From assembly GCA_035527515.1 (NCBI GenBank), contig DATLAJ010000111.1, positions 1 to 40,800 of the forward strand: DNA of 40,800 bases, read 5' to 3'. Every line of letters begins with the position of its first letter. Within the stretch, counting starts at the first letter, position 1. Below are positions 3,268-40,800 of this stretch, one piece after another. The position numbers were made by a program, and so were the translations under genes. The notes under the pieces are model-generated. The model made no database searches and had not been told where the DNA came from. It was given only the letters and a program-made list of their open reading frames with translations. Origin of the DNA: a bacterium. Its GTDB lineage: Bacteria; B130-G9.

Positions 3268-5136
3268 TTGAACCCGCGTCTTAAGACCCTTGCGCTCTGG
3301 GCGTCCATTATTATCGTCGCTGCTTTGTTGGCGAAGTTTGTTGAAACAACCCCGCCGAGCGATTCCAAATGGACTTATAGCCAGTTCAGGCAGGAATTGG
3401 CGGCGGGTGCGATAGAGCGTGTGGAGATTCGCGAGTCTCGGCTGGAGGGGGTTACCAGGAGCGGTCAGCGGTTTTACACCTATATTCTTGACGACCCGAC
3501 CCTTTATGCGGCACTTGACAAGACGGACACGGTTGTCGAGGTCATGCCAAGGCAGGAGCAATCTTGGCTTCTCTCCGCTCTTTTGACCTGGCTTCTGCCG
3601 ATGGGGATATTCCTGGCGATCTGGATTTTCTTGATGAGGCAGATGCAGGGCGGCGGTTCCAAGGTGCTTTCTTTTGGGAAGGCCAGACCCAAACTCACCA
3701 CTGACAAATCGAAGCGAGTTACGTTTGACGACGTGGCGGGCATTGATGAGGCAAAGGAGGAGCTTGACGAGATCATCGATTTTTTGACCGATCCGCAGAA
3801 GTATCAGCGCCTCGGCGGGAAGCTTCCGAAAGGTGCGCTTCTTATCGGCGCACCCGGCACAGGAAAGACGCTCTTGGCCAGGGCAATTGCGGGCGAGGCG
3901 CAGGTTCCATTCTTCAGCATCAGTGGCTCGGAATTCGTTGAGATGTTCGTCGGCGTTGGAGCATCTCGAGTTAGAGACCTTTTTGAACAGGGCAAGAAGC
4001 ACGCTCCCTGCATCATTTTTATTGACGAGATCGACGCGGTTGGGCGTTATCGAGGGGCGGGGATCGGTGGTGGGCACGACGAGCGTGAACAGACGCTCAA
4101 CCAGCTGCTTGTCGAAATGGATGGATTCGAGTCGAGCGACGGAGTGATCCTAATCGCGGCGACGAATCGTCCGGATGTTCTCGATCCGGCGCTGCAGCGG
4201 GCGGGCCGGTTCGACCGGCAGATTGTTGTGAACCGCCCTGACCGGAAGGGGCGTGAGGCGATAATGAAGGTTCACACCAAGGAGATAAAGCTTGGAGCGG
4301 ACGTGGACCTCGGCGTCGTTGCTCGTGGGACGCCGGGCTTTACCGGGGCGGACCTAGCTAATTTGGTAAACGAGGCCGCGTTGCTCGCAGCGAGACGAAA
4401 TCAGGATGAGGTTAGTGCAGTTGACATGGAAGACGCGAAGGACAAGGTTCTGATGGGTGTGGAGCGGCGGTCGCTGATAATCACGGATGAGGAGAAGAAA
4501 AACATCGCCTATCACGAGGCGGGCCACGCTCTTTTGGCCGCGCTCTTGGAGCATACAGACCCCGTCCACAAGGTTACGATTATACCAAGGGGGCGAGCAC
4601 TCGGCCTCACGCAACAGCTGCCGATCGACGACAGGCACAACTACGACATAGATTATCTGAACGACCAGCTGGCGTGTATGCTTGGAGGTCGCGTGGCCGA
4701 AGAGATCTTTCTTGAGTCCATAACCACCGGCGCAGGGAACGACCTTGAGATCGCAACCAATCTCGCCAGAAAAATGGTCTGCGAGTGGGGCATGAGCGAG
4801 GCGATAGGGCCACTGACTTTTGGCAAGAAGGAGGAGCACATATTCCTCGGCAAGGAGTTCGCGCAGCCAAAGGACTTCAGCGAGGCCACGGCCATCAAAA
4901 TCGATCAGGAGATCGAGCGAATCGTGAGGAGGAATTACAAAAGGGCGAGGCAGACTCTGCTCGACAAGGCTCCATTGGTCCATACCCTCGCGGCAGCTCT
5001 GTTGGAGAAGGAGGTCCTTGACGGCGGAGAGGTCCGGCAGATCGTCGATGACTATCTGCAGTCCAAAGGGCAGATTACAGAGAAGCCGGCCGAGAAGGAA
5101 ACGGCGCCTGCGAATGACTCATCTGATAAAGAGTGA
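3268..5136 (+). CDS. ftsH: ATP-dependent zinc metalloprotease FtsH
   Basis: FtsH is a membrane-anchored AAA+ protease that extracts and degrades membrane and short-lived cytosolic proteins as a hexamer. Two membrane segments (residues ~7-24 and ~104-122) flank a periplasmic/extracytoplasmic domain. The AAA module has Walker A GAPGTGKT (194-201), Walker B IIFIDEID, and a second region of homology ending RAGRFDRQ. The pore loop ([13 protein letters not shown]) is intact. The zinc site HEAGH is at 416-420, with the third ligand region near NDLEIAT. Length (622) is normal for the family. The start is TTG with AGAGAGG about 9 nt upstream. The C-terminus is lysine/glutamate-rich, as is common. folP follows 164 bp downstream, an arrangement also known from other bacteria. 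Confidence 0.96.
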
Positions 5137-35595: not shown

Positions 35596-37388
35596 CCACA
35601 GCGATAGATGATGTGGCGCTGCAAGAGGAGCTAGCCCGCGCGCCACTCTCAAAGAAAGTTATCAGACGGATGTTGACGTATCTCGCGCCATACAAGTGGG
35701 CGATCGCTCTAGTCTTGGTGATGGAGCTGCTGTGGGTTTCCTGCGCACTGATCGGGCCAAGGCTGGTCAGGATCGGCATCGACGACCACATCGTCAAAGG
35801 AGATATCGCTGGCCTGGGGCTGATCGCAGCGCTTTACGCGTTGACCTCGCTTGCCAGATGGCTGCTTGCGCTGTGCCAGATAAGGATTGGCTCTTCGAGA
35901 GGGCAGAGAGTGCTGAACGACCTGCGAAACGCTGTATTCACCCACGTTCAGGAACTGTCGATGAAATACTTCGACAAGACCAAAGCGGGAAGGATAATCG
36001 CAAGGGCCGATAGGGACATCGAATCGCTCGAAGAGATCGTTACGTGGGGCCTTGTGGAGTTCAGCAGCTGCATCCTGCGCCTCACCGGGGTCACAGTACT
36101 CATGTGCCTCAGCAGCCCGAGACTGTTCCTTGCCATTGTCGTGACAATGCCTCCACTTGCGGTCGCAAGCATCTTGTTCCACAAATATGGCCTGGTCGCT
36201 TACCGAAGGACTAGGGAGAGCATCTCGCGCATCACGGCGAACCTCGCCGAGAATATCAATGGCGTGCGGGTTGTTCAGGCGTTCATGCGGGAGAGGAGAA
36301 ACGCTCTGACCTTCCGCAGGCTTAACGATAGATATATCCGTAACATGATGGGCGCCTCGAGGGTGTGGAACACATACTTCCCGTTCATCGACATGATGTT
36401 TGCGACGGCTACGGGCATTATCCTGCTTTACGGGGCAGGCCTTGTCGTCCGCGGCGACCTGACGATCGGAGTGCTTCCGGAGTTTATGCTTTATCTGGGC
36501 ATGTTCTTCTGGCCGCTTGAGGGTCTGACCTATCTTTACAACAATGCCCTTGCGGCAACGGCGGCGGCGGAGCGGATATTCCAGCTGCTTGATGCGGAGC
36601 CGGAAATCAAAGACCGCGACAACGCCAAACCGATCCCGGAAATCAAGGGCAGGGTCGAGTTCAAGGATGTCCATTTCAGCTACGACGTGAATGGCAAGCG
36701 CGAGTGGGTCCTGAAGGACATCTCGTTCAAGGCCGAGGCTGGCCAGACAATCGCCCTCGTCGGGCCGACTGGCGGGGGTAAGAGCTCCACCGTGTCTCTT
36801 ATACCCAGGTTCTATGAGGCGCAGCGAGGTAGTGTCACGATCGATGGCCACGATGTAAAGGATGTCACGCTCGATTCGCTGCACGAGCAAATGGGTATCG
36901 TGCTTCAGGAGAGCTTCCTTTTTACCGGGACAGTCATGAAGAATCTCAGGTTCGCGAATCCCAACGTCTCGGAACAGCAAGTCGTTGAGGCGGCGAAAGC
37001 TCTCGGCGCCCACGACTGCATAATGAAGCTCTCGGACGGCTATCAAACGCAAGTCCATGAGCGAGGCGCGGGCCTCTCACAGGGCGAGCGCCAGCTCATC
37101 TGCTTCACCCGAGCCTTCATCGCCGACCCCAGGATTCTCATCCTGGACGAGGCCACATCGTCCGTTGACACTATGATCGAGCAGAGACTACAGGAGGCCA
37201 TGGGCAGACTGATGCGCGACCGCACGTCCTTCGTCGTCGCGCATCGCCTCTCTACGGTTCGTTACGCGGACCTGGTCCTCGTCGTCGGCGACGGCACGAT
37301 TAAGGAGCGAGGCACTCACCAAGAGCTACTCGCCCTGGGCGGCGAATACGCAAAGCTCTACCACGAATACATGCGCGATCTGAGCTGA
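35592..37388 (+). CDS. ABC exporter half-transporter with catalytic ATP site (heterodimer subunit 2)
   Basis: This is the partner half-transporter (598 residues), starting in an ATGA overlap with the first subunit. Six membrane helices precede an ATPase domain with Walker A GPTGGGKSS (from 391). Walker B is the intact ILDEATSSVD (D519, E520), and the switch histidine is H551 (VAHRLST). Its signature loop is LSQGE (from 495) instead of LSGGQ. In the dimer this weak signature pairs with the degenerate Walker B of subunit 1, while the intact residues here pair with the good signature of subunit 1. One site is therefore catalytic and one regulatory, as known for the family. No terminator is visible after the gene. 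Confidence 0.94.
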   Translation: MTTAIDDVALQEELARAPLSKKVIRRMLTYLAPYKWAIALVLVMELLWVSCALIGPRLVRIGIDDHIVKGDIAGLGLIAALYALTSLARWLLALCQIRIGSSRGQRVLNDLRNAVFTHVQELSMKYFDKTKAGRIIARADRDIESLEEIVTWGLVEFSSCILRLTGVTVLMCLSSPRLFLAIVVTMPPLAVASILFHKYGLVAYRRTRESISRITANLAENINGVRVVQAFMRERRNALTFRRLNDRYIRNMMGASRVWNTYFPFIDMMFATATGIILLYGAGLVVRGDLTIGVLPEFMLYLGMFFWPLEGLTYLYNNALAATAAAERIFQLLDAEPEIKDRDNAKPIPEIKGRVEFKDVHFSYDVNGKREWVLKDISFKAEAGQTIALVGPTGGGKSSTVSLIPRFYEAQRGSVTIDGHDVKDVTLDSLHEQMGIVLQESFLFTGTVMKNLRFANPNVSEQQVVEAAKALGAHDCIMKLSDGYQTQVHERGAGLSQGERQLICFTRAFIADPRILILDEATSSVDTMIEQRLQEAMGRLMRDRTSFVVAHRLSTVRYADLVLVVGDGTIKERGTHQELLALGGEYAKLYHEYMRDLS

Positions 37389-37393
37389 CAAGC

Positions 37394-37612
37394 GCTCCCG
37401 ACCCAGTGTCTGGGTGCCCACGGCACTCGGGCGGAGAGCCTCCGCTCCCTTACCTTGTGGACCGGAGGTGGCAACCGCACACGTATGTCTTTGGTGGGCG
37501 TGGCTTGGGCTGTGAAGGGGAGCTCCGTTTCGGTGCGAGCCGACCGAGTTCGTTCGCCGGTAAAAGAAGCTATGGGTGCGCAGACACTGGGTCGGGAGCA
37601 GAGGCTCTCCGC
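37394..37612. repeat. composite palindromic repeat (two rearranged copies with perfect 19-bp inverted arms)
   Basis: 37394-37412 and 37581-37599 are perfect inverted repeats (right arm CAGACACTGGGTCGGGAGC). A second inverted pair, 37431-37449 and 37594-37612, shares the core GCGGAGGCTCTCCGC-like palindrome (18 of 19). The segment 37505-37560 is, on the minus strand, similar to 40227-40275. The same modules recur at 38450-38528 and 40194-40301. I see no supported gene in 37389-37813. A weak promoter (TTGACA 37707-37712, TACAGG 37730-37735) may serve the next ORF. Confidence 0.7.
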
Positions 37613-37813
37613 CTTTACATTCTGGGCCCCGATGATGGGTCAGGACATGATATCGACTCTAAATATCATGCTGGCCAAAAAAACGCGCTTGATATACGTT
37701 TTTGACTTGACATACATCGCGGAGTGTGGTACAGGCATTTACTAGCTTTACATTTTTTATTGAGGCCCCACAGACATTAGGAACTGATGGCAATAGAGCG
37801 AAAAGGAAAGAAA

Positions 37814-38040
37814 ATGAATAAGGCGTTGATGTGGGCGATTGTTATGGAGCTGGTGACTACCACCGAGGGGCGGACAGAATCCGTCTGAAGGCCGACCGCA
37901 TGTATAAGGCGGAAGTCAACAAGGCAAACGGGGCAGAGACAAGATGTAAGAATAAATGCAGCGAAACATTCGGTGGGGGGGGGAGTGGCGGGACCGAGAT
38001 GTCTGTGACTTTTGATGCGCAGAATATCCCGGCTCCCTAG
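37814..38040 (+). pseudogene. small ORF, probably frameshifted; possible Rhs tip remnant
   Basis: An ATG at 37814 with AAAGGAAAGAAA upstream reads MNKALMWAIVME and stops after 24 codons. An overlapping frame (open 37831-38040) continues with a hydrophilic sequence (YHRGADRIRLKADRMYKAEV, ETRCKNKCSETF) and a glycine-rich stretch over a run of nine G (37976-37984), ending FDAQNIPAP. The best reading is one gene with a frameshift between the two frames, but either could be meaningless. It lies 22 bp before a membrane-protein ORF, an arrangement like a displaced Rhs toxin tip and its immunity gene (inference, weak). Confidence 0.3.
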
Positions 38041-38062
38041 TTAACTCGAGGATCCTATTGAA

Positions 38063-38428
38063 ATGGAAACGCAGATGACAGAAGTTTGGTGGCGCCCGTA
38101 CGCTGGCATTTTCGCGTTTGGGATGTGGTTTGGCTTCATGTACTTGCTCAAGCGGCGCATGAACCTGCAGTCAAGAGGCCAGAGAAGATGGTATACAGTG
38201 TTGTGTTCGATCTCGTTGCTGTTCATTGTGCTCCTCTTGGGAACGAGGTGGCCCAGCGGTGTAAGTCCCTTTGAGTCCGCGTTCTGGATGGAGGTCCAAC
38301 TTCCTTTCAAGTCTTGGGTCGAGAACTGGCAAGGTGTGCTGAAAACTGTCTTGAAAGGTTGCGTATTCGGATTGTTTGTCTTGTTGCTGAATAGAATCGC
38401 ACATCGGAAATGTGAGAAGCTGCGATAA
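38063..38428 (+). CDS. small integral membrane protein, possible immunity protein of the Rhs locus
   Basis: This 121-residue protein has three hydrophobic segments: YAGIFAFGMWFGFMYLL, TVLCSISLLFIVLLLG and GCVFGLFVLLLNRIA. Loops are basic. ATG 38063 has GAGGA about 11 nt upstream, a loose spacing; a second ATG at 38075 is possible. It sits inside the Rhs remnant region, directly after a degraded small ORF and just before an Rhs core fragment. In Rhs loci, small membrane proteins in such positions are often immunity proteins, but no family was recognised here. Confidence 0.55.
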   Translation: METQMTEVWWRPYAGIFAFGMWFGFMYLLKRRMNLQSRGQRRWYTVLCSISLLFIVLLLGTRWPSGVSPFESAFWMEVQLPFKSWVENWQGVLKTVLKGCVFGLFVLLLNRIAHRKCEKLR

Positions 38429-38449
38429 AAGTTGCGCTTGGCGAGCGCG

Positions 38450-38528
38450 CGTGTCAGCCGAGCTCGCCTCAACTCCCGGCCAAAGCGCAGCCTCGGCGCA
38501 GGTTACGGGAGCGGAGGCTCTCCGCCAA
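38450..38528. repeat. copy of the palindromic repeat family next to the Rhs fragment
   Basis: It carries CCGAGCTCGCCTCA (compare CCGAGCTCCCCTCA at 40257-40270) and ends with GGGAGCGGAGGCTCTCCGCC, identical to 40282-40301. The middle is longer than in the other copies. Confidence 0.6.
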
Positions 38529-38746
38529 TGACCTACGGTCCAGACGGCAAACGACTCAGCTTGACAGACTCGTCCGGCACGCGCAAGTTCTTCTACGATA
38601 GAAACGACGTCATTCAGGAGTATAACTCGGACTGGTCAACGGTGAATAAAGAATACACGCACGGGCCGTGGGTGGATGAGCCGCTGTCGATGACTGTGCG
38701 AGGCAGCTCGACTGGCGTATCGAGGACAGCGAGCGACACCTACTAC

Positions 38747-38772
38747 CTGATGAAGGACCGGCTCGGCTCCAT
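38747..38772. repeat. 26-bp direct repeat, left copy (Rhs DRLGS motif)
   Basis: It matches 40053-40078 with one mismatch and encodes LMKDRLGSI in the Rhs frame. The two copies bound a 1280-bp segment carrying the TPR-like gene. Confidence 0.85.
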
Positions 38773-38883
38773 CTAGTAAAGGCCGTGCAGATAACATGTT
38801 TGCTATGTTCCGGAAAGTTCGGTAGATTAAATATGTTCGTGAGATTGGGCTGAAGCTAGAAAGAAGGAGAGGATGATGCTGAA

Positions 38884-40056
38884 ATGGTTATGAGGCAGTC
38901 TGTTTTGGGGTTGCTCGTTGTGAGTTGCCTGGTTGTGGTGGTTTTGTCAGGGGTGGCACCTTGCGCGTTAGCAGCTGCGGAGGAGTCGCCTGTTGACACG
39001 AGCCACTTAAGGGCGCTAGGTCACGCCAGTGAGTTCTACTTCGACCGAACGATGTTGGATACAGGAGAGACAGCCCTGTTTCCGGAGGCGGACGTGGTGG
39101 CCTATGTCGGTGAGCGGTATGCAGATGGCAAGGTATTGTCAACATCCTGGCTCGACAGCTACAACCTGTTTCGTGCTTGCTGCCATTTGGCGAATCGCTA
39201 TCCTGCGGAGAGCGACCAGCGCAGGCACTGGCTTACTGTTGCCGTGCAGGCTGCGAGCAAATGTTTTGAGCTGGACCCACAGGACGCTGAAGTGTGTTTT
39301 ACTATCTCTTTGTATGTCATTAGAGATGTCTGGTTTTGCGATGAGCTGATACGGTTGGTCTTGGCAATGCCGAGCCAAAGCAATGCGGCAAAAGCGCTAA
39401 AGTACTACAACGTAGCGAACGTGCTCCGTCCGAAGGGTGAGTTTTCTCAGGGACTTCGACTATCGAGAGCAGCGGCCCAGCTATATCCTAAGGACTCAAG
39501 TATCCTGCATCAGCTCCGTTGGTTCCAGAAGGCGCAGAATAGGACTGATCAGGCAATTGAGACGACCAAATCGCTGTGCGACGTCGAGGATGCTGAGGGG
39601 TCTGAGTGCACTGAGCTCTATCTATCCGTGAAGTGCGACGTGGAGTTGGGAGACCTGCGCTTGGCAAGAGGGGACAGGCGAGAGGCATACCAGTATTACT
39701 CAGATGCCTGGCCGAAAATCGAGCGAATGTATTCTGTGTGCGAGGGCTATGCCTGGTTGAAGGTTAGACGGAACGAGTGTGCGACTGGGCTTGGCGTGAT
39801 TGCTCTCGCAGAAGGAGACGTCGACTCTGCGCTGCTGTGGCTTAAGCGTTCTTATGACGCAGATGCGCCGAAGGGCTTCCTGAAATACGGCGGGTATGAT
39901 CTGCGGCTTGTGAAGGAGCTAATCAGCAAGGGCCTTGCCCAAGACGAGTGTAAGCGATACTTGGAGGCCGGCTCATCAGTAGGCCAGGAATATCAACGTG
40001 CTGCTGCGAAGCGTTTGCTGGAATCTTTGACAACGAGGGACGACACGCCCAACTGA
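38884..40056 (+). CDS. exported TPR-like protein inserted in the Rhs locus
   Basis: This 390-residue protein has a clear signal peptide (VLGLLVVSCLVVVVLSGVAPCALA, cleavage near ALA-AAEE). The rest is mostly helical and contains TPR-like pairs: VAVQAASKCFELDPQDAEVC, GLRLSRAAAQLYPKDSSILHQL, GLGVIALAEGDVDSALLWLK. There are about eleven cysteines in the mature part, unusual for a TPR protein and suggesting an extracytoplasmic, disulfide-bonded form. AAGGAG lies 14 nt before ATG 38884, and a six-codon ORF (ATG 38873) sits at the ideal distance, so the true start may be coupled. The stop overlaps the ATG of the Rhs tip ORF (TGATG). The gene is enclosed by the 26-bp repeats and splits the Rhs core. 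Confidence 0.8.
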   Translation: MVMRQSVLGLLVVSCLVVVVLSGVAPCALAAAEESPVDTSHLRALGHASEFYFDRTMLDTGETALFPEADVVAYVGERYADGKVLSTSWLDSYNLFRACCHLANRYPAESDQRRHWLTVAVQAASKCFELDPQDAEVCFTISLYVIRDVWFCDELIRLVLAMPSQSNAAKALKYYNVANVLRPKGEFSQGLRLSRAAAQLYPKDSSILHQLRWFQKAQNRTDQAIETTKSLCDVEDAEGSECTELYLSVKCDVELGDLRLARGDRREAYQYYSDAWPKIERMYSVCEGYAWLKVRRNECATGLGVIALAEGDVDSALLWLKRSYDADAPKGFLKYGGYDLRLVKELISKGLAQDECKRYLEAGSSVGQEYQRAAAKRLLESLTTRDDTPN

Positions 40057-40078
40057 TGAAGGACCGCCTCGGCTCCAT
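40053..40078. repeat. 26-bp direct repeat, right copy (Rhs DRLGS motif)
   Basis: It matches 38747-38772 with one mismatch (C40067 versus G38761). It overlaps the stop of the TPR-like gene and the ATG of the Rhs tip ORF. Confidence 0.85.
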
Positions 40079-40800
40079 AATCAACATCATGGACGCTAGC
40101 GAGAACCTCAAAACCACGTATAGCTACGACGCCTTTGGCCAACCGACCGGGACGTATCACTCTGGCCAGGTGGATTGCATGTATCGCTTCACCGGGTGCC
40201 AACGGCACTCGGATAGCTGCTTTCAGCGGCGAACAAACTGGGTCGGCTCGCACGTTCCGAGCTCCCCTCAGCCCAGGGTAAGGGAGCGGAGGCTCTCCGC
40301 CTTCTATCGTGCCCGCTACTACAACCAGTCCCTCGGGCGCTTCTTCTCCCGCGACCCCATCTTCTCCCTTTCCTCCCTCTACGCCTACTGCCACAACTCC
40401 CCCGCCAACTTCACCGACCCGTTCGGCCTGCTCGCCGACTCAATTGGTGGCGATGTCGCTGGTACCCCGATGGGAATGTATCATCCTTTGTACCGAGGGC
40501 CCCGAAACCTTCCTTGTGCTGCAAAGGGCAATAAGGTCAAGGTGGCCGGCAAGACTTACACAAGCACGGGCGAGAAAAGTGTCGACGGTGGAGAAATATA
40601 TGAGGCCGAGGATGGGTCAAGCATAACTGTATATGAATATGAAGACGGCACATATACATATGTTTGGAATTTTAGCACTGAGGTTACAGGTAGTGGATCA
40701 CGCGGCTCCGGGGACGACTTCACGGGCGAAGACTGGGCGGACTTTGAGAACCATGGATATAGTTATGGCTACCGAAAGGAAATAGCCGATAACTACAATC
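40056..40800 (+). CDS. Rhs core end plus variable C-terminal tip, partial (runs off right edge)
   Basis: The frame is open from ATG 40056 to the right edge (248 codons). It starts at MKDRLGSIINIMDASENL, then YSYDAFGQPTGTY, YRFTG, YRARYYNQSLGRFFSRDP and LYAYCHNSPANFTDPFGL, the Rhs repeat-associated core that ends before the toxin. Between RFTG and YRARYY there are 36 residues instead of the usual ~11; they are encoded by a copy of the palindromic repeat, without breaking the frame. After DPFGL the tip (LADSIGGDVAGTPMGMYHPL ..., then acidic and tyrosine-rich) matches no toxin family I recognise. The ATG overlaps the stop of the TPR-like gene. It may be an orphan tip or part of a rearranged Rhs gene. 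Confidence 0.8.
   Translation, partial: MKDRLGSIINIMDASENLKTTYSYDAFGQPTGTYHSGQVDCMYRFTGCQRHSDSCFQRRTNWVGSHVPSSPQPRVRERRLSAFYRARYYNQSLGRFFSRDPIFSLSSLYAYCHNSPANFTDPFGLLADSIGGDVAGTPMGMYHPLYRGPRNLPCAAKGNKVKVAGKTYTSTGEKSVDGGEIYEAEDGSSITVYEYEDGTYTYVWNFSTEVTGSGSRGSGDDFTGEDWADFENHGYSYGYRKEIADNYN
40194..40301. repeat. palindromic repeat copy inside the Rhs core reading frame
   Basis: It contains the hairpin GTGCCAACGGCAC (40196-40208; compare GTGCCCACGGCAC at 37414-37426). The central part, 40227-40275, is similar to the reverse complement of 37505-37560, and the end GGGAGCGGAGGCTCTCCGCC (40282-40301) is shared with 38509-38528. Its length keeps the Rhs frame open. Confidence 0.75.

Follow-up and report, generated by a model that had tools for sequence, protein, structure and literature searches.

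A lineage-specific family of hairpin-forming repeats in Coatesbacteria that lies mostly between genes and in some cases in frame within them

We identified a family of hairpin-forming repeats present in dozens of copies in a family of Coatesbacteria, specific to this lineage and located mostly between genes, with some copies lying in frame inside protein-coding genes. Our starting point was a window of 40,800 nt, the whole of contig C111 from a 3.47 Mb genome in 183 contigs (95.6% complete; hereafter G000), which we compared with a congener (G001) and with two other genera of the same family (G002 and G003). All four genomes are draft assemblies, in which Rhs junctions bounded by repeats could contain mis-joins. 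To our knowledge, in-frame palindromic repeats have so far been nearly private to Rickettsia and a few REP-rich species; an independent family in an uncultured lineage means that the phenomenon recurs. We have good confidence that these are short multi-hairpin repeats, REP/BIME-like and MITE-sized, that spread by a process often removing target DNA, and that the in-frame copies are its survivors.

An earlier note on this DNA, made from the sequence alone, had described palindromic modules recurring in the window, and this was borne out. The R hairpin GGGAGCGGAGGCTCTCCGCC matches four sites in the window with up to three mismatches, against 0.04 expected by chance (Table 1). Two of the original placements were adjusted: the module given as 37431-37612 is palindromic but is in fact one 220-nt composite with an oppositely oriented R hairpin at each end, and the core given as 38509-38528 is an R hairpin that lies two positions upstream. 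Long inverted arms occur only in the 220-nt composite. Across G000, when up to two mismatches are allowed, the pattern GGAGCGGAGGCTCTCCGC is found 36 times, whereas a reversed control is not found at all. Repeat units were parsed with an HMM and counted per genome with a covariance model of the 77-nt unit, which returned 47 units in G000, 17 in G001 and 4 each in G002 and G003, so the copies in the window have many counterparts elsewhere in the genome. The repeat was absent from 37 genomes searched outside the family, an Rfam search of positions 37000-40800 returned no relevant family, and the viral contigs searched contained no exact R hairpin. A literature search on Coatesbacteria repeats yielded nothing relevant, in line with the suggestion that the family was previously unrecognised.

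Table 1. Repeat modules and Rhs pieces at the 3' end of the window (positions in the 40,800-nt stretch).
Feature	Position	Strand	Description
Composite array	37394-37613	.	220 nt; intergenic, 6 nt past the end (37388) of an ABC-transporter ORF
Composite, modules D/C		D (-)/C (+)	
Composite, module R	37430-37449	-	match to the R hairpin
Composite, module B2	37517-37544	+	
Composite, module D	37574-37593	+	
Composite, R variant	37594-37613	+	match to the R hairpin, 1 mismatch
Degenerate copy	38450-38526	+	abuts the 5' edge of the Rhs core fragment
Degenerate copy, terminal R hairpin	38507-38526	+	perfect hairpin; match to the R hairpin
Rhs core fragment	38528-38773	+	reference residues 337-413; stop codon 38774-38776
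26-bp direct repeat, copy 1	38747-38772	+	Rhs LMKDRLGSI segment, end of first Rhs fragment
26-bp direct repeat, copy 2	40053-40078	+	start of second Rhs fragment
Orphan Rhs tip ORF	40056-40800	+	248 aa, open at contig end; Rhs-associated core domain at residues 82-125
In-frame repeat copy	40195-40301	+	within the orphan Rhs tip ORF
In-frame copy, C hairpin	40195-40212		
In-frame copy, B	40242-40267	-	
In-frame copy, R	40282-40301	+	match to the R hairpin

The basic unit parses into ~77 nt comprising a hairpin B (GGCGAGCTCGGMACGTGCGAGCC; an alternative version, B2, holds CCGTTTCGG inside), a ~30-nt spacer ending in AAGCTATG, and a terminal hairpin. The latter exists as R (GCGGAG-GCT-CTCCGC), r3 (GCCGAG-GCT-CTCGGC), R2 (GCGGAG-ACA-CTCCGC), D (GGTGCCCAGACACTGGGTC) or the reverse complement of C (C being GGTGCCCACGGCACTCGG), and R units are tagged GGAG or GGTG. 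On the far side of B is a GC-rich stretch that often reaches a second R. Units chain into mosaics in which the 3' hairpin versions are swappable and their stems carry compensatory changes: GC to CG double changes were found at stem columns 68/78 in 10 of 23 units and at columns 69/77 in 4 of 23, and the orthologous copies beside ribF differ by one double compensatory change. Clear covariation is restricted to the terminal hairpin, and the folding energy of the whole element was not stronger than that of shuffled sequences (z from +0.03 to -1.75). Near-identical composites of more than 200 nt occur at unlinked places (contigs C16 and C26; contigs C158 and C65), the members of a pair differing by whole modules gained or lost, and opposite-orientation pairs occur as well. 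Units are open in 3.9 of six frames versus 3.22 ± 0.15 in shuffles, a test that is not independent given that the units are mutually related.

G000 has roughly 40 sites, most of them intergenic and commonly within ~60 nt of the 3' end of a gene; by hand count they fall between convergent gene pairs more often than divergent ones (about 9 vs 3). Neighbors recognized by eye include secA, plsY, coaBC, mutS and ribF, along with a tRNA-Ser (ARAGORN) whose adjacent copy is common to G000 and G001 and whose adjoining intergenic DNA is no longer alignable. The idea of a coding-compatible repeat thus applies to copies in frame inside some protein genes, but it is not general, because most G000 sites are intergenic and at least one Rhs copy, on contig C47 of G002, is out of frame.

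The coding copy in the window sits in Rhs sequence, between RFTG and FYRARYY, and leaves the frame open, as the earlier note had reported. An intact paralogue on contig C126 of G000 has RVYDEAMGNY at this place (RFTG-RVYDEAMGNY-FYRARYY), indicating that 105 nt of repeat stand in for the 30 native nt encoding these residues, a net gain of 75 nt in frame. The replacement originally described as 36 residues for about 11 is therefore real but comes to about 36 for 10, and these residues do not look like a normal Rhs loop, being absent from the examined paralogues without a copy of their own. The carrier is indeed Rhs, but its ORF is no complete gene, being an orphan 3' piece that begins in the middle of the core and is cut off by the contig end; a TPR-like ORF separates the two Rhs pieces of the window, and the second begins at reference residue 405. 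Because this carrier is an orphan fragment, we regard the window copy as weak evidence. Elsewhere, Rhs sequences of G003 carry in-frame replacements of 64 nt by 166, 111 nt by 126 and 34 nt by 139, and the out-of-frame copy of G002 replaces 51 nt by 125. The total for Rhs is four copies in frame and one out, with 30-111 native nt missing at each; some of those in G003 have common junctions and represent a single event that was duplicated.

Better evidence for insertion into coding sequence than the window Rhs copy comes from a mutase and a polymerase. A gene of the phosphoglucomutase/phosphomannomutase family on contig C165 of G000, an 812-codon open frame with Pfam PGM_PMM_I and III, carries AESLRSHNFLYQRTQTGRLARSELAS in frame (26 codons) between GHSITPAILE and LFFAGNGL. 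Contig C207 of G001 carries the same 26-codon insertion, the element is absent from contigs C190 of G003 and C117 of G002, and all frames are open. The element lies within a heptanucleotide TTGGCGG repeat, which G003 has without the element. Between G000 and G001, 75 of its 78 nt are kept, against a gene mean of 79%, and none of the 639 other 26-codon windows of the gene is equally conserved; fourfold sites are identical at 15/15 positions in the element versus 173/284 elsewhere (Fisher p = 0.0008). The three differences are all non-synonymous, so protein-level selection does not explain this conservation, which could instead reflect independent re-insertion or gene conversion. An AlphaFold model of the mutase, built with 4 sequences (mean pLDDT 46), was uninformative on the loop.

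The second gene encodes full-length polymerases of the DNA polymerase III alpha type, a second such gene in these genomes, with PHP, palm, finger, HHH and OB domains. The G002 polymerase (contig C211) contains one in-frame element (GAHGTREN...RARL), and the G001 polymerase (contig C274) contains two different ones, one of which replaces roughly 24 native residues while the other includes an R hairpin (2 mismatches; chance expectation 0). The insertions of G001 are absent in G002 and that of G002 is absent in G001, indicating three independent copies. The B hairpin is read as RLARSELAS, VGSHVPSSP and SARTFRARL and, from the opposite strand, as EPSSGRARRPY, and thus in four reading frames. By a conservative count, six of seven independent events in recognizable genes are in frame (p = 0.007 at a one-third chance each), a figure that includes ascertainment: part of the events were found by way of ORFs running across them, which biases toward in-frame cases. 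The excess is partly such ascertainment and partly survival.

A reading of the window Rhs copy as irrelevant to coding, whether because the hairpin arose by chance or because an rhs pseudogene cluster in decay was chimerically assembled, is very unlikely. The carrier is truncated by the contig end, rhs is multi-copy here and prone to misassembly, and a frame is kept by chance one time in three; but the match counts in the window and genome exclude chance, an independent assembly, that of G003, holds a comparable in-frame copy (contig C373) at almost the same point in Rhs, and in-frame copies occur in housekeeping-type genes, one of them common to two assemblies. Rhs itself might account for the repeat if displaced rhs tip modules were shuffled by recombination at a repeat marking their 5' edge. 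At every one of the roughly ten Rhs boundaries with a recognizable R in the four genomes, R lies immediately upstream of the Rhs piece on the same strand, the exact R matches of G003 among those listed in an 18-mer scan are all on its two Rhs contigs, and a single element on contig C174 of G001 links an ABC-transporter start to a Rhs tip. We nevertheless consider such cassette exchange quite improbable: the boundaries fall at many Rhs positions (reference residues about 30, 216, 319, 337, 358, 405 and 485), several of them are paralogous duplicates, most G000 copies are unconnected to Rhs, other orphan tips (contig C126) have no repeat, and no recombinase was identified.

The repeats could also be classical REP/REPINs, with R and its GGAG/GGTG tag as the REP, moved in trans by RAYT, a Y1 tyrosine transposase acting on single-stranded hairpins. 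In favor, the short R hairpin follows a GGAG, the repeats form mosaics and pairs of opposite orientation, Y1_Tnp genes occur in all four genomes (one or more in each), and REPs have been reported within genes, DnaE2 among them (PMC3733652). However, the tag is neither GTAG nor CGTC, and the Y1_Tnp gene of G000 (contig C146) has a different, GTAG-tagged family at its borders and no copy of the present one there, which led us to reject RAYT linkage in that genome. Other Y1_Tnp loci have no present repeat at their flanks, as judged in draft assemblies and with lost RAYTs possible, and the sole match, on contig C211 of G002, is to the DnaE copy, which has a truncated Y1_Tnp nearby. Movement by a RAYT is conceivable but, on this evidence, rather doubtful.

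In-frame palindromes are already known, and the present family works alike; we do not file it with Rickettsia palindromic elements (RPEs), GTAG/CGTC-REPs or MITEs because it misses one defining feature of each. RPEs occur in frame in many Rickettsia genes, each encoding a conserved peptide (PMC10969869, PMC2229807). Like RPEs and the Wolbachia palindromic elements (~100-150 nt), our repeats are dispersed palindromes found in frame in conserved genes that stay open (PMC10969869, PMC2229807), here the mutase in two species and the DnaE-type gene at three sites. Unlike RPEs, they are read in four frames with no conserved peptide, are bipartite with swappable terminal hairpins, lie mostly between genes, are GC-rich, belong to an unrelated lineage and have often lost target DNA. 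The likeness to Rickettsia elements drawn in the earlier note, compared by description, is therefore one of behavior and does not support membership. GTAG/CGTC-REPs are defined as hairpins of 20-40 nt with a GTAG or CGTC tag at one end and are intragenic in several species (Di Nocera et al. 2013, PMC3733652), where many of the carrier genes, DnaE2 among them, serve DNA synthesis and repair, a pattern echoed by the repeated insertions in our DnaE-type polymerase. The present family shares with REP/BIMEs its short hairpins in both orientations, its mosaics and its location 3' of genes and sometimes within them, but differs from GTAG/CGTC-REPs in its tag, in its ~77-nt layout of two hairpins and a spacer, and in its lack of flanking RAYTs. 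As in bacterial MITEs (Correia/NEMIS, ERIC, RUP, QMITE), the size is non-autonomous, frames are open and in-frame fusions occur, such fusions having been reported for ERIC and the 107-bp Correia form (PMC2229807). Unlike MITEs, the basic unit has no clear terminal inverted repeats, comparable sites show no TA or other target-site duplication, and a survey of Y1_Tnp genes revealed no parent IS.

We therefore return to spread by a target-removing process with survival of in-frame copies. That process would probably be trans-acting or based on replication or recombination, and would often remove tens of nucleotides of target DNA and leave no visible target duplication. Native DNA is lost at the Rhs sites and at one polymerase site, unlike in a clean insertion. 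Most copies would survive in intergenic DNA just 3' of genes, and a copy whose net length is a multiple of three, landing in a loop that tolerates it, could be kept in a functional gene and presumably translated. Stop codons are scarce in the GC-rich units, which would make in-frame copies tolerable, and the placement of these copies would thus reflect survival and not any coding role of the repeat. At comparable sites we found no linked transposase (in the Y1_Tnp survey), excised copy, target duplication or uniformly clean empty site; of the earlier description of the repeat as mobile, dispersal stands, and mobility itself we infer.

The element or its terminal hairpin outlasts its surroundings at three shared sites, suggesting that the nucleic acid itself is under constraint. 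A stronger proposal, in which the repeat functions as a nucleic-acid element, is selected as such even inside genes and spreads by replacement of 30-111 nt without a linked transposase, seems to us unlikely. It would draw on the mutase gene, where the 26 codons show no synonymous change and 39% of fourfold sites differ elsewhere. Filled and empty alleles can be compared across species at the in-frame sites, and nucleotide conservation inside a gene makes the choice between selfish passenger and selected structure directly testable. Separately, the 18-mer is also present in Ruminococcus genomes. A tRNA origin of these matches was discarded, as ARAGORN predicted no tRNA at them; they seem to lie within a repeat of those genomes' own, and we took them as coincidental.

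Two pieces of rhs in the window have a 26-bp end/start segment in common and are separated by a TPR-like ORF of 390 aa, an order resembling that of displaced rhs tip modules. Contig C126 of the same genome carries an rhs piece whose right end lies at residue 413 (reference Rhs numbering), as does that of the first of the two window pieces. In the relative G001, a single element links an Rhs tip to the start of an ABC-transporter gene resembling one in the window; this junction is either a rearrangement or an assembly join. In another relative, G002, an ORF that we assigned by eye to the group II intron-type reverse transcriptases appears to be truncated by a degenerate copy of the element.

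The only Y1_Tnp (RAYT-like) gene detected in the source genome, G000, is surrounded by a GTAG-tagged palindromic family distinct from the studied repeat. The mutase gene also carries an in-frame heptanucleotide repeat, whose heptamers recur beside other elements on contigs C128 and C22 and are present without the element in the relative G003.

The 18-nt hairpin GGAGCGGAGGCTCTCCGC is identical in Ruminococcus genomes (stretches L097, L098, L109, L113, L130 and L131), where it sits within what looks like a dispersed repeat of Ruminococcus itself; L098 holds four copies, spaced 94-186 nt apart.

Coordinates of the features described
Feature	Location	Sequence
rhs pieces and TPR-like ORF	window 38773-40053	
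ABC-transporter gene	window 33802	
ABC-transporter/Rhs tip junction	G001:C174:1-560 (L188)	
Reverse transcriptase ORF	G002:C96, L248:3374-3844	
Y1_Tnp gene and GTAG-tagged family	G000:C146:60182-63526 (L084)	GGGTAGCCGTGTGCGAAGCACAACGGG and inverted copies
Heptanucleotide repeat, mutase gene	G000:C165, L141:3788-3833 and 3912-3929	TTGGCGG/TTGGCAG
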